A stretch of 64,000 nt of DNA, taken from positions 310,001 to 374,000 of the forward strand of contig JAJCXM010000003.1 of assembly GCA_029263455.1 (NCBI GenBank). The letters run 5' to 3'. Positions 34,647-44,856 of this stretch are shown piece by piece. The first letter of the stretch is position 1. The number at the start of each line of letters is the position of its first letter. The DNA is from Holophagae bacterium. Lineage in GTDB: Bacteria; Acidobacteriota; Holophagae; Acanthopleuribacterales; Acanthopleuribacteraceae. A program made the position numbers and the translations under genes. The notes under the pieces were generated by a model. That model did not search any database. It saw only the letters and a list, made by a program, of their open reading frames with translations, and had not been told where the DNA came from.

Positions 34647-34745
34647 AAAAAACGGGAGCTACGTGTAAGTTCAATTTTCCCTTTTGGTCACTGAAGTCTT
34701 CATGCAAGAACTTGGCGTCTATGCCACATAGTGATATAGTTGCAC

Positions 34746-35162
34746 ATGACGCGCGTCTTTGTTACCAAGGTGTTTGCTAAGTGGTTGAAAACGCAGAGTA
34801 AGTCTGGACTAACAAACATGGACCTATGCCATGCTGTCACTGAGATGAAGAAAGGGCTAATCGATGCCGATTTAGGTGGCGGCGTACTAAAGAAACGAGT
34901 GAGATTGGCTGGACGAGGAAAGAGCCCAGGCTATCGAACAATAGTGGTCACGAATAAAAACGACAGATGGTTTTTCGTCCACGGATTTAAGAAGAGTGAA
35001 AAAGACAATATTGGAACAAAAGAACTTAAGGCTCTAAAGAAACTGAGCAGTGACTTGCTTCCCCTCGACGTCAATCAAATTGCACAAGCGGTTACCAACG
35101 GAATGATGACTGAAATCTGCGGCGATACCAGCGCTAAAGAAAGGAAACACGATGAGCACTAA
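34746..35162 (+). CDS. RelE/HigB-like toxin of a type II toxin-antitoxin pair
   Basis: 138 residues from ATG 34746. The profile fits the HigB2/RelE group (PF06296-like): an N-terminal FVTKVFAKWLKTQ, LCHAVTEMKKGLIDADLGGGVLKKRVRL, then GRGKSPGYRTIVV and FFVHGFKKSEKDNI with a KELKAL helix. Members are ribosome-dependent or free mRNA endonucleases. The stop overlaps the start of the antitoxin gene by 11 bp, toxin first, the usual order for hig pairs. The pair is bracketed by 120-bp direct repeats, suggesting it arrived as a unit. Confidence 0.85.
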   Translation: MTRVFVTKVFAKWLKTQSKSGLTNMDLCHAVTEMKKGLIDADLGGGVLKKRVRLAGRGKSPGYRTIVVTNKNDRWFFVHGFKKSEKDNIGTKELKALKKLSSDLLPLDVNQIAQAVTNGMMTEICGDTSAKERKHDEH

Positions 35163-35463
35163 AAACCCGATCCTTGAATCAGTATACGAAACGGCGAGCG
35201 ATCTCCAAAAGTTGGGTTTTATCAACGCAAAGCGCTTGTCCGAATACAAGGAGCTATGCATTGATCCATCTATGGAATTTAGCCCCGAACGGATTCGCAA
35301 AATACGATCACAACTTAACGTTAGCCAAGTTGCTTTGGCGACCTTCATCAATGTATCTCCTTCAGCAGTTCGAAAGTGGGAACAGGGTGACAAGAATCCT
35401 AGCGGACCCGCAAAAAGGATCTTGGACTTATTGGAGCGCAAGGGCCTAAGCGTATTGATCTGA
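35152..35463 (+). CDS. HigA/NadS-like antitoxin (helix-turn-helix)
   Basis: 103 residues from ATG 35152, with AAGGAAA upstream. The C-terminal half is an XRE-type helix-turn-helix, IRKIRSQLNVSQVALATFINVSPSAVRKWEQG (in part: LNVSQVALATFINVSPSAV), with the WEQGxxxPSGPAxRIL ending that is characteristic of HigA2/NadS antitoxins. The N-terminal half would neutralise the toxin. It overlaps the toxin gene and probably represses the pair's promoter. Confidence 0.9.
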   Translation: MSTKNPILESVYETASDLQKLGFINAKRLSEYKELCIDPSMEFSPERIRKIRSQLNVSQVALATFINVSPSAVRKWEQGDKNPSGPAKRILDLLERKGLSVLI

Positions 35464-38052: not shown

Positions 38053-38165
38053 CGATGCTTTTTTCCTTTCTATACTTAGTATTGATCCGAATTCATCACT
38101 ATCTTTATCAAGCAAAACAAGGTACTCATCCGACAACCTCGTCCCCTGTGTCGCAGGCGTCACTA

Positions 38166-38267
38166 TGACTGTCGCATAAGTCCTAATAATTCGACGAAAC
38201 GATTAGAACGACTATCCCATTTATTGTATCTACCTGAGTACAAACGGATTATAACCTCTGGCTAGAA
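38166..38267 (+). mobile_element. Left part of a MITE (type A), truncated
   Basis: Nearly identical to the first 100 bases of the complete MITE at 39728-39908 (TCCTAATAATTCGACGAAAC, TATCCCATTTATTGTATC, TACAAACGGATTATAACCTC). The right half is absent and the next MITE begins at its end. Confidence 0.75.
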
Positions 38268-38420
38268 GAGGCTGTCTCATAAGCCTTCTAATTTGCTCGA
38301 AACAGCTTGTTAGTTCAATTGGATCATTGCTAAGTACGCAAAAACAAAAGACTTCGAACCTCCGGCTAGAAGCTCGGACTCACATTGAAGACGATTGAAG
38401 CGACTTATGCGACAGCCTCA
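38268..38420 (-). mobile_element. MITE (type B) of 153 bp
   Basis: Ends are GAGGCTGTCTCATAAG and CTTATGCGACAGCCTC, a near-perfect terminal inverted repeat. Its interior, read on the minus strand, matches the MITE at 44647-44800 over its length (AATGTGAGTCCGAGCTTCTA, GAGGTTCGAAGTCTTTTGTT). No coding capacity. The flanks do not show a clear target duplication because it abuts another element. Confidence 0.8.
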
Positions 38421-38555
38421 TCCCGCCTGTAATGTCAAAGAGCATTAATCAACCTAACTGCAGCCCTTTTCCCTATTGTTCGATCTTTTCGACCAATTAA
38501 AGGCTCAACAGTCAAGATGACTGTTCCACGATCGAAAACTGTGCCCTCCTGTGGC

Positions 38556-38573
38556 ACAGACATCCCTGTCTGT
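38556..38573. repeat. Uninterrupted ACAGACA-TCCC-TGTCTGT hairpin (empty site)
   Basis: Perfect 7-bp stem with a TCCC loop, embedded in about 90 bp (38526-38620; CACGATCGAAAACTGTGCCC to AAAATGCAGCCTGTGCTC) that recurs at 39690-39964. In that second copy a MITE interrupts the loop. Confidence 0.85.
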
Positions 38574-38620
38574 GAGGTCAAAAACCTCCGTTCGACCAAA
38601 AATGCAGCCTGTGCTCTCAA

Positions 38621-38687
38621 GAGGCCGCAGGCCGACTGACCCGGTAGCCCACCCCGATGCCGACGCAGTCGGGTGAGGGGTGGGTTA
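38621..38687 (+). repeat. Palindromic repeat GAGGCCGCAGGCCGACTGACC, copy 1
   Basis: Composed of GAGGCCGCAGGCC and a second palindrome CCCACCCCGATGCCGAC/GTCGGGTGAGGGGTGGG. Other copies lie at 39967-39994 (partial), 43114-43177 (inverted), 43345-43400 and 43975-44038 (inverted). Confidence 0.8.
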
Positions 38688-38910: not shown

Positions 38911-39135
38911 ATGCGCAAGAAACTTACCGCTATTGGCAACAGTCTTGGGCTGGTCATCGAAAAGCCAATTTTGGATTTGCTCAACATCAACCGTGAAACC
39001 GAACTCGAAATCACTACCGATGGTGACGGTCTCAGCATTCGACCCGTCCGTGAAAGCCGTGCAAAACGCATTGAAGACGCCGCTCATCGCGCCATGGATA
39101 ACCACGAAGAGACCTTTCGGAAGCTCGCTCAGTGA
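38911..39135 (+). CDS. AbrB/MazE-family antitoxin
   Basis: 74 residues, ATG 38911 with GGAG upstream. It is a SpoVT/AbrB swapped-hairpin domain: MRKKLTAIGNSLGLVIEKPIL and LNINRETELEITTDGDGLSI (each a part), followed by a charged C-terminal helix that would neutralise the toxin. The stop overlaps the Doc start (GTGA). AbrB-type antitoxins combined with Doc toxins are known, although the founding pair is Phd-Doc. Confidence 0.92.
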   Translation: MRKKLTAIGNSLGLVIEKPILDLLNINRETELEITTDGDGLSIRPVRESRAKRIEDAAHRAMDNHEETFRKLAQ

Positions 39136-39515
39136 CCATCGACTTCCTATCGGTCGACGAGGTGCTTTTCTTAAACCGCCAGCAACTCCAACGATTTGGC
39201 GGAGCAGATGGGGTACGAGACTTATCATTGCTTGAGTCGGCCGCCGCCCAGCCACAATCCTCCTTTGGTGGAAGCTACCTGCACGGAGACCTCTTTGAAA
39301 TGGCTGCAGCTTACTTATCCCACATCGTCAAAAGCCACCCCTTCGTGGATGGAAACAAGAGAACCGGTTTGTTGGCTGCATTGGTCTTTCTCGACCTCAA
39401 TGGAATCATCATAGATCAAGGCAACACTGAGCTCTTCAGTCTAACCCTCGGAACCGCCGAAGGTAAGCTGGACAAATCGTTTGTCACCCAGAAACTACGC
39501 GCTCTGGTGACTTAG
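39132..39515 (+). CDS. doc: Doc-family toxin (Fic fold)
   Basis: 127 residues from GTG 39132, overlapping the antitoxin stop. The catalytic motif HPFVDGNKRTGL starts at H69; the Lys (K76) in place of the second Gly of Fic motifs is the Doc signature. Doc phosphorylates EF-Tu instead of AMPylating targets. FGGADGVRDLSLLESAAAQPQ and AAAYLSHIVKSHPF complete the family pattern. Full length for Doc (P1 Doc is 126 residues). The two-gene unit lies alone between repeat clusters. Confidence 0.93.
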   Translation: MTIDFLSVDEVLFLNRQQLQRFGGADGVRDLSLLESAAAQPQSSFGGSYLHGDLFEMAAAYLSHIVKSHPFVDGNKRTGLLAALVFLDLNGIIIDQGNTELFSLTLGTAEGKLDKSFVTQKLRALVT

Positions 39516-39727
39516 CCCACCCCACAATCAACGCGATGCTCTTTGCGTCATACGCGAGCCTGGCAATTCCACTCGGCACGAACCCAGGTCGCCAGAGATT
39601 CCTCCCTCACCCAAGAGTCAACAACCATTGCGACGCAGCGCCGTGCCATTGACCTTGGTCCGCAAAGAACGGAAAACACAAAAATTCCACGATCGAAAAC
39701 TGTGCCCTACTGTGGTACAGACATCCC

Positions 39728-39908
39728 TGAGGCTGTCTCATAAGTCCTAATAATTCGACGAAACGATTAGACCGACTATCCCATTTATTGTATCTACCTG
39801 ATTACAAACGGATTATAACCTCTGGCTAGCCGGCTTCACTGGTTACGCCGCGCCAAGGAAGCCAGACTCACATTCTTGGGCCTTGAAGCGAGTTTTGCGA
39901 CAGCCTGA
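39728..39908 (+). mobile_element. MITE (type A) of 181 bp inserted in a hairpin loop
   Basis: Ends TGAGGCTGTCTCATAAGT and GCGACAGCCTGA form imperfect terminal inverted repeats; 4-bp target duplication TCCC. The interior contains one AACCTC...GACTCACATT hairpin (39817-39874). There is no open frame for a transposase; termini of the GAGGCTGTC type occur in several IS families, so the helper transposase is elsewhere. Confidence 0.88.
39817..39874 (+). repeat. AACCTC...GACTCACATT hairpin repeat, long form
   Basis: AACCTC, then TGGCTAGCCGGCTTC ... GGAAGCCA, then GACTCACATT. Same long form at 43024-43082 and 44209-44266, outside MITE context there. Confidence 0.8.
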
Positions 39909-40128
39909 TCCCTGTCTGTGTTGTCAAAAACCTCCGTTCCACCAAAAATGCAGCCTGTGCTCCCGAGAGGCCGCAGGCCGACTGACCTGGCAGCCCCCGC
40001 GCTCTCGACGCAATCGAGTTTGGGGACAACAACCGCTCAAAGAGTTTGAGCTTTTTGCCTCGTTCCACTTAGAATATTGGGACAATCCTATTAACGCCGC
40101 AATCGGTCCAACCACACAGCAGGCAAAC

Positions 40129-43484: not shown

Positions 43485-43922
43485 ATGTCCCACAGTTTTG
43501 TCCACGTCTACATCCACGTCATATTCGCCACTAAAGATCGTAGGCCATGGCTTACAGAAGACGTTCGGGTGCGCTTGATCCCTTACCTCGGTGGCATTGC
43601 CCGTCAGAAAAAGGTTGCAACGATTGCCATCGGAGCCGTGGAGGATCACGTGCATGTCCTGTTGAAGCTGCACTCGGCGGTTTCGATCGCCAAACTGATC
43701 GGCGACATGAAGTCCTATTCTTCAGCGTTTGCGAAATCAATAGGGGTTGCTGATTTTGCATGGCAGGAAGGTTACGGTGCGTTTTCGTGCTCCAAAAACC
43801 ATGTGCTCACTGTCAAACGGTATGTCGAGAATCAGGAGGAGCACCATCGCACCCATTCCTTCGACGATGAAATGGCACGTTTGGCAAACATCTGGGGGTT
43901 TGATTGGAGTTCGGGCGGTTAG
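43485..43922 (+). CDS. IS200/IS605-family Y1 transposase, REP-associated (RAYT-like)
   Basis: 145 residues. HUH motif H55-V-H57 in EDHVHVLLKLH, catalytic tyrosine Y113 in VKRYVENQEEHH, and the family N-terminus FVHVYIHVIFATKDRRPWL. All residues needed for single-strand DNA cleavage are present. It is flanked by REP sequences in opposite orientation: one ends 38 bp before the ATG, the other begins 2 bp after the stop. This is the arrangement of REP-associated tyrosine transposases, which nick REP hairpins. A solo REP at 38701-38731 supports activity in the region. No second IS605 gene (tnpB) is present. Confidence 0.92.
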   Translation: MSHSFVHVYIHVIFATKDRRPWLTEDVRVRLIPYLGGIARQKKVATIAIGAVEDHVHVLLKLHSAVSIAKLIGDMKSYSSAFAKSIGVADFAWQEGYGAFSCSKNHVLTVKRYVENQEEHHRTHSFDDEMARLANIWGFDWSSGG

Positions 43923-44382: not shown

Positions 44383-44646
44383 TGCTTGATGCTTGCTTCG
44401 TTTTGGAAGAGGGCTAACAGCCTAACCTCCGACACGGATGTCGGACTCACATTCTTGCAGCTTGATGCTTGTAGCTTGTTGCTTGTTGCTTGCTTCGCTA
44501 TGGATGAGGGCTAACAGCCTAACCTCCGACACGGATGTCGGACTCACATTCTTGAAGCTTGCAGCTTGCAGCTTGTTGCTTGTTGCTTGTTGCTTGCTGC
44601 TTGCTTCGCTTTGGATGAGGGCTAACAGCCTAACCTCCGACACGGA
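44383..44646 (+). repeat. Three tandem units with TTGCTTG heptamers and CCGACA-CGGA-TGTCGG hairpins
   Basis: Each unit of about 97-110 bp consists of a variable run of TTGCTTG-like heptamers, GAGGGCTAACAGCCTAACCTC, and the hairpin CCGACA-CGGA-TGTCGG followed by ACTCACATTCTTG. Hairpins at 44424-44453 and 44521-44550 are intact; the third is interrupted by a MITE after 44646. Heptamer number varies between units, which suggests slippage. Confidence 0.85.
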
Positions 44647-44804
44647 TGAGGCCGTCGCATAAGTGACTTCAAGCGTCTCTAATGTGAGTCCGAGCTTCTA
44701 GCATGAGGTTCGAAGTCTTTTGTTTCTATGCACTTAGGAACTCACCAACTGTACGGACATGCTGTTTTGAGCAAATTTGACGACTTATGAGACAGCCTCA
44801 CGGA
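44643..44804. repeat. Target-site duplication CGGA flanking the 44647-44800 MITE
   Basis: CGGA at 44643-44646 and 44801-44804. Removing the MITE and one copy gives CCGACA-CGGA-TGTCGG, as in the two intact tandem units directly upstream. Confidence 0.9.
44647..44800 (+). mobile_element. MITE (type B) of 154 bp inserted in a hairpin loop
   Basis: Ends TGAGGCCGTCGCATAAGT and ACTTATGAGACAGCCTCA, 4-bp duplication CGGA. Its interior is about 80% identical to the reverse complement of 38268-38420 and contains an inverted AACCTC-type hairpin (44681-44710). Non-coding. Confidence 0.9.
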
Positions 44805-44856
44805 TGTCGGACTCACATTCTTGAAGCTTGCAGCTTGTTGCTTGTTGCTTGCTGCT

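Follow-up and report, generated by a model that had tools for sequence, protein, structure and literature searches.

MITEs that split hairpins at their loops in an acidobacterial genome, and their probable mobilization by an IS1182-family transposase

IS1397-type elements insert in the loops of palindromic units. As cited in a study of REP sequences, IS1397 and ISKpn1, both members of the IS3 family, insert into REPs or palindromic units (PMC1525189). All copies of the REP-targeting IS110 elements ISPpu9, ISPpu10 and ISPa11 lie in REPs, and most IS110 members lack terminal inverted repeats (PMC1525189). In the IS1182 family, IS1272 and TnSha1 use stem-loop targets that have no common sequence (Wan et al. 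2017, PMC5678879; Furi et al. 2016, PMC4923244). IS1272 deletes its target stem-loop and makes no duplication (PMC5678879, PMC4923244), and Wan et al. include duplication of a loop solely as a hypothesis (pathway c of their Fig 13; PMC5678879). According to Siguier et al. 2015, as quoted in PMC5678879 and PMC4923244, some IS1182 members target palindromes, a statement that, according to Wan et al., comes without detailed data (PMC5678879). Loop duplication may already be described in that review.

The element described here lies in a window of 64,000 nucleotides from a Holophagae bacterium (contig JAJCXM010000003.1, positions 310,001 to 374,000). It resembles IS1272 in its probable IS1182-family transposase and in its stem-loop targets, which have no common sequence. 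They differ in the fate of the target: IS1272 removes the stem-loop, whereas here both arms are kept and split and a loop of 5-6 bp is duplicated. Stem-loop replacement of the IS1272 type therefore does not describe these insertions, which retain their stem arms and carry a duplication. Family and palindromic target are also common to this element and the IS1182 members of Siguier et al. 2015, as that review is quoted by others. IS1397 and ISKpn1, as cited, resemble it in inserting into palindromic repeats, and ISPpu9, ISPpu10 and ISPa11 in targeting REPs, but these elements use transposases of other families (IS110 in the latter case).

Positions 39717-39919 of the window read ACAGAC-ATCCCT-GAGGCTGTC...GACAGCCTG-ATCCCT-GTCTGT on the forward strand. 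A MITE of 179 bp (39729-39907) is flanked by two copies of ATCCCT (39723-39728 and 39908-39913), which are flanked in turn by the complementary arms ACAGAC (39717-39722) and GTCTGT (39914-39919). The element thus splits a hairpin whose loop is the target duplication, as the first-pass annotation had claimed. The bare direct repeat at this copy is 7 bp long (ATCCCTG, 39723-39729 and 39908-39914), so that the exact boundary is ambiguous from the window copy alone. Comparison with other copies in the genome sets the ends as GAGGCTGTC...GACAGCCTC, that is, GAGG...CCTC, which gives an element of 179 bp with a 6-bp duplication; its outermost sequences are GAGGCTGTCTCATAAG and GCGACAGCCTG, and the final base is usually C. 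The direct duplication read by the first-pass annotation stands, while its lengths (an element of 181 bp and a 4-bp TCCC duplication) give way to these values. A 4-bp TCCC duplication was also dropped as a rule for the family, since other copies show 5-6 bp.

An intact hairpin, CACAGACA-TCCC-TGTCTGTG, is present nearby at 38555-38574 (DNA fold -7.6 kcal/mol, z -2.55). This sequence, CACAGACATCCCTGTCTGTG, is the sole match at up to three mismatches within the window, where 0.02 are expected. When the two flanks of the insertion are joined, their alignment with 38523-38640 spans 115 columns, contains 8 mismatches and has no gap inside it, and the empty site reported earlier is therefore real. 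It is a paralogous rather than an orthologous site. When 60 related genomes were searched, no homologous MITE turned up beyond the element's own genome, which leaves no orthologous empty site for comparison.

The window contains two further copies, both on the forward strand. One of 152 bp (44648-44799; C3:354648-354799) has a 6-bp duplication, ACGGAT, and splits the hairpin TCCGAC-ACGGAT-[element]-ACGGAT-GTCGGA (44636-44811). The other (38268-38419) adjoins a partial left half at about 38165-38267 (together C3:348165-348419); comparison of its flanks found no matching duplication, and it is probably a recombinant of nested copies. Among the neighbouring genes, those at 38911-39515, beside the hairpin, are likely a toxin-antitoxin pair: a MazE-type match that is weak and falls below Pfam's cutoff, and then a Fic/DOC protein. 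At 34740-35463 a gene for a RelE-type toxin precedes one for a helix-turn-helix antitoxin. A gene for a Y1 (IS200-like) transposase lies at 43485-43922; by analogy with REP-associated transposases elsewhere, it could have a connection with this genome's REP-like hairpins.

The same genome carries an IS of 1941 bp (1.94 kb; C34:331436-333376) with the same ends as the MITE. It has a single open reading frame of 508 aa and terminal inverted repeats (GAGGCTGTCGCATAAGTC / GAGGCTGTCTCATAAGTC). The protein, with DUF772 and DDE_Tnp_1_6 domains, scores 386.9 bits against NF033551, the curated model for IS1182 (cutoff 270), over residues 8-496; the match to this model, the one reading frame, the length within about 1.5-2 kb and the terminal inverted repeats place the IS in that family. 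Each of its two ends matches the corresponding MITE end for about 15-22 bp, including the variant proper to that end (GTCTC or GTCGC), and only the ends are common; the interior of the MITE is not shared. The identification as a MITE is borne out, the element being short and non-coding and sharing both ends with an autonomous element of the same genome. The IS3 family and its member IS1397, to which it had been compared earlier, are the wrong family: the likely helper has the DUF772 and DDE_Tnp_1_6 domains and the IS1182 match, and because the MITE shares ends with this IS, IS1397 is at best an analogy.

The shared ends make this IS1182-family transposase the most likely mover of the MITE. The assembly contains a single full-length IS, whose flanks do not match (TTCCA / ATCCC) and which so does not itself show a duplication, perhaps as a result of recombination or chimeric assembly. 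Several contigs break off in IS1182-type ends or just inside them (C4:486746, C6:33528, C13:34458, C14:323049, C25:77057, C35:1 and C39:25125). Breaks inside this or a sister IS suggest collapsed multi-copy ISs, and the assembly probably contains too few full-length copies.

The genome, which belongs to an acidobacterial relative of Sulfidibacter (6.25 Mb in 40 contigs), has 53 matches to the element. With as many as two mismatches allowed, 118 occurrences of the end motif GAGGCTGTCKCATAA were counted, compared with 13 of the reversed control pattern. Copies were gathered by search and by place; the first 100 listed ends were inspected singly, and copy and flank counts hold among the matches listed. 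Pairing of ends by matching duplications yields a curated set of 25 copies among these matches, with duplications of 5 bp in 16, 6 bp in 8 and 4 bp in 1. Some copies in the genome, including the sole full-length IS, lack a matching duplication. The MITEs fall into two size classes, near 150 bp and near 179 bp; the larger has some 30 extra bases in its central loop. Some MITEs are nested in each other's central hairpin, which is of the CTCTGGCTAGAAGCCAG type, and TAGAA/TTCTA is then duplicated (C19:15284-15565, C21:91440-91590, C11:13548-13780 and others). Imperfect targets in MITE centres were left out of strict hairpin calls.

With the duplication taken as the loop and the first seven flanking positions scored as Watson-Crick pairs, 113 of 175 positions pair in the 25 copies with readable duplications. 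At least four of seven positions pair in 19 copies, against a random mean of 1.75 of seven per copy, and the genome-wide hairpin check proposed in the first-pass annotation succeeds by this count. Under the strict count the proportion is less than half, with perfect stems of 5-7 bp in 9 of the 25; one further copy has six of seven positions paired. When the right (3') arm is slid by 1-3 bases, only 36-45 pairs and no stems of at least 5 bp remain. These flanks show that palindromes are selected in register with the duplication. Many copies that are old have imperfect hairpins and a few show none; little or no pairing (three of seven positions at most) is seen in 6 of the 25. If right flanks are re-dealt among the 25 copies, the observed total is reached in 0 of 20,000 trials, so that the signal is one of complementarity, over and above any motif that the sites have in common.

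The stem-loops split in this genome are varied. They include CACAGGC-GTCTC-GCCTGTG, AACAGGC-AAGAT-GCCTGTT, TCCGAC-ACGGAT-GTCGGA, CGGCC-GAAGAT-GGCCG and TTTGGC-TTCTA-GCCAAA. As single-stranded DNA, the perfect targets take up the expected fold and reach z-scores as low as -5.1, and a target with one mismatch (C4:483862) has an unremarkable fold (z -0.72).

A second genome of the Acanthopleuribacteraceae (Acidobacteriota), that of Sulfidibacter corallicola M133 (NZ_CP071793.1), has eight identical copies of a related IS whose transposase is 43% identical to that of the helper. A 5-bp duplication flanks all eight, and in seven it forms the loop of a perfect 8-bp stem. The stem versions GGTGGAGC/GCTCCACC and GGTTGAGC/GCTCAACC covary; together with the re-dealt flanks, they indicate that complementarity is maintained across unlike stem sequences. 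Two MITEs of this genome are arranged in the same way, within 8-bp stems, and a third occupies a hairpin of a second type, TCGGCC-CAGCG-GGCCAA, with six of seven positions paired. Nearly all targets are a single REP-like repeat, present in about 171 intact copies, so that the chance of landing in a loop is about 7e-5 per insertion, and structure and sequence are not separable from this genome alone.

These observations make it probable that the MITE is moved by an IS1182-family DDE transposase that chooses hairpin-forming palindromes and joins the element at the edges of the loop, which is thereby duplicated. The MITE would be a non-autonomous derivative that shares both ends with the IS. The transposase would select palindromes with a stem of about 5-8 bp, closed by G-R-C / G-Y-C, and a loop of 5-6 nt. 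It would join the element ends to opposite strands at the two loop edges, and gap repair would then duplicate the loop. The excess of complementarity suggests, without settling the matter, that the hairpin is read in an extruded (cruciform or single-stranded) form and not as a symmetric duplex. A more tentative proposal, to which we give slightly less than even chances, is that this IS1182 clade reads extruded hairpins by their shape and joins at cruciform loop edges, which would make it a natural, multi-copy case of the pathway that is hypothetical for IS1272. If true, deletion and duplication of structured targets would both be within the reach of one transposase family.

That a single MITE merely happens to sit in a single palindrome is refuted. 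Every individual site is short and only one was noticed at first, but 9 of 25 stems reach at least 5 bp where 0.0013 (0.13%) is expected per site, a binomial P of about 2e-20 with no correction for related targets. These counts are not fully independent, since sequence is shared among copies, targets and MITE centres. The pattern also recurs in Sulfidibacter. A more serious competitor, possible though we would not favour it, is a transposase that reads a symmetric double-stranded motif through a two-fold symmetric complex, the hairpin being incidental. A near-fixed C-N-G-R-C ... G-Y-C-N-G surrounds the duplication, and G-R-C stands at the right distance in 49 of 86 distinct outward end flanks among the matches listed (6.6% at random). 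At the three pairs adjoining the loop, which are near-invariant (G-R-C / G-Y-C), covariation is not significant (P=0.09), and a sequence motif thus accounts for part of the signal. The proposal of Tobes and Pareja 2006 (PMC1525189) that palindromic REPs are recognized in a regulator-like way, and their mention of palindromic Tn5 targets, are in keeping with such a reading. So are more distant proteobacterial IS1182 relatives, which have 4-bp duplications (GACC, GGTC, GGCC), a symmetric consensus (GNCNGC...GCNGNC) and few perfect hairpins; even this set retains a small excess of complementarity (P=0.004), too weak for these relatives to be counted as further replicates of hairpin targeting. Against the symmetric motif, the variable positions 4-7 form 54 pairs in 22 non-redundant sites, obtained by cutting homologous targets to one each, while 34 are expected and 0 of 20,000 re-dealt trials reach this number. 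The stems of Sulfidibacter also covary, and a consensus alone would not predict complementarity. As a separate observation, a Pseudomonas mandelii IS1182 copy lacks a direct duplication, and its two flanks are mutual inverted repeats across the target bases (GGTC / GACC).

It is unlikely that a dispersed REP-like repeat is targeted by its sequence and is a hairpin only by coincidence. The single REP type that takes nearly all insertions in Sulfidibacter fits this idea, as does ACARRC, which stands at the right distance in 19 of 86 end flanks of the MITE's own genome among the matches listed, compared with 0.5% at random. Yet targets in that genome include MITE centres and stems as unlike as CGGCC, TCCGAC and TTTGGC, and the pairing excess persists when CACAGGC-like sites are removed (P=0.005). 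The Sulfidibacter MITE in the second hairpin type likewise speaks against recognition of one repeat sequence.

Two genomes and numerous sites supply sequence evidence for a DDE transposase that chooses hairpins and cuts where the loop meets the stem. Nesting of MITEs in one another's central hairpins is a route shown by this family. Taken with IS1272, the insertions suggest that IS1182 elements share structural targeting and differ in the place on the stem-loop where their ends are joined. They offer a tractable natural case of a transposase that picks its target by palindrome or shape.
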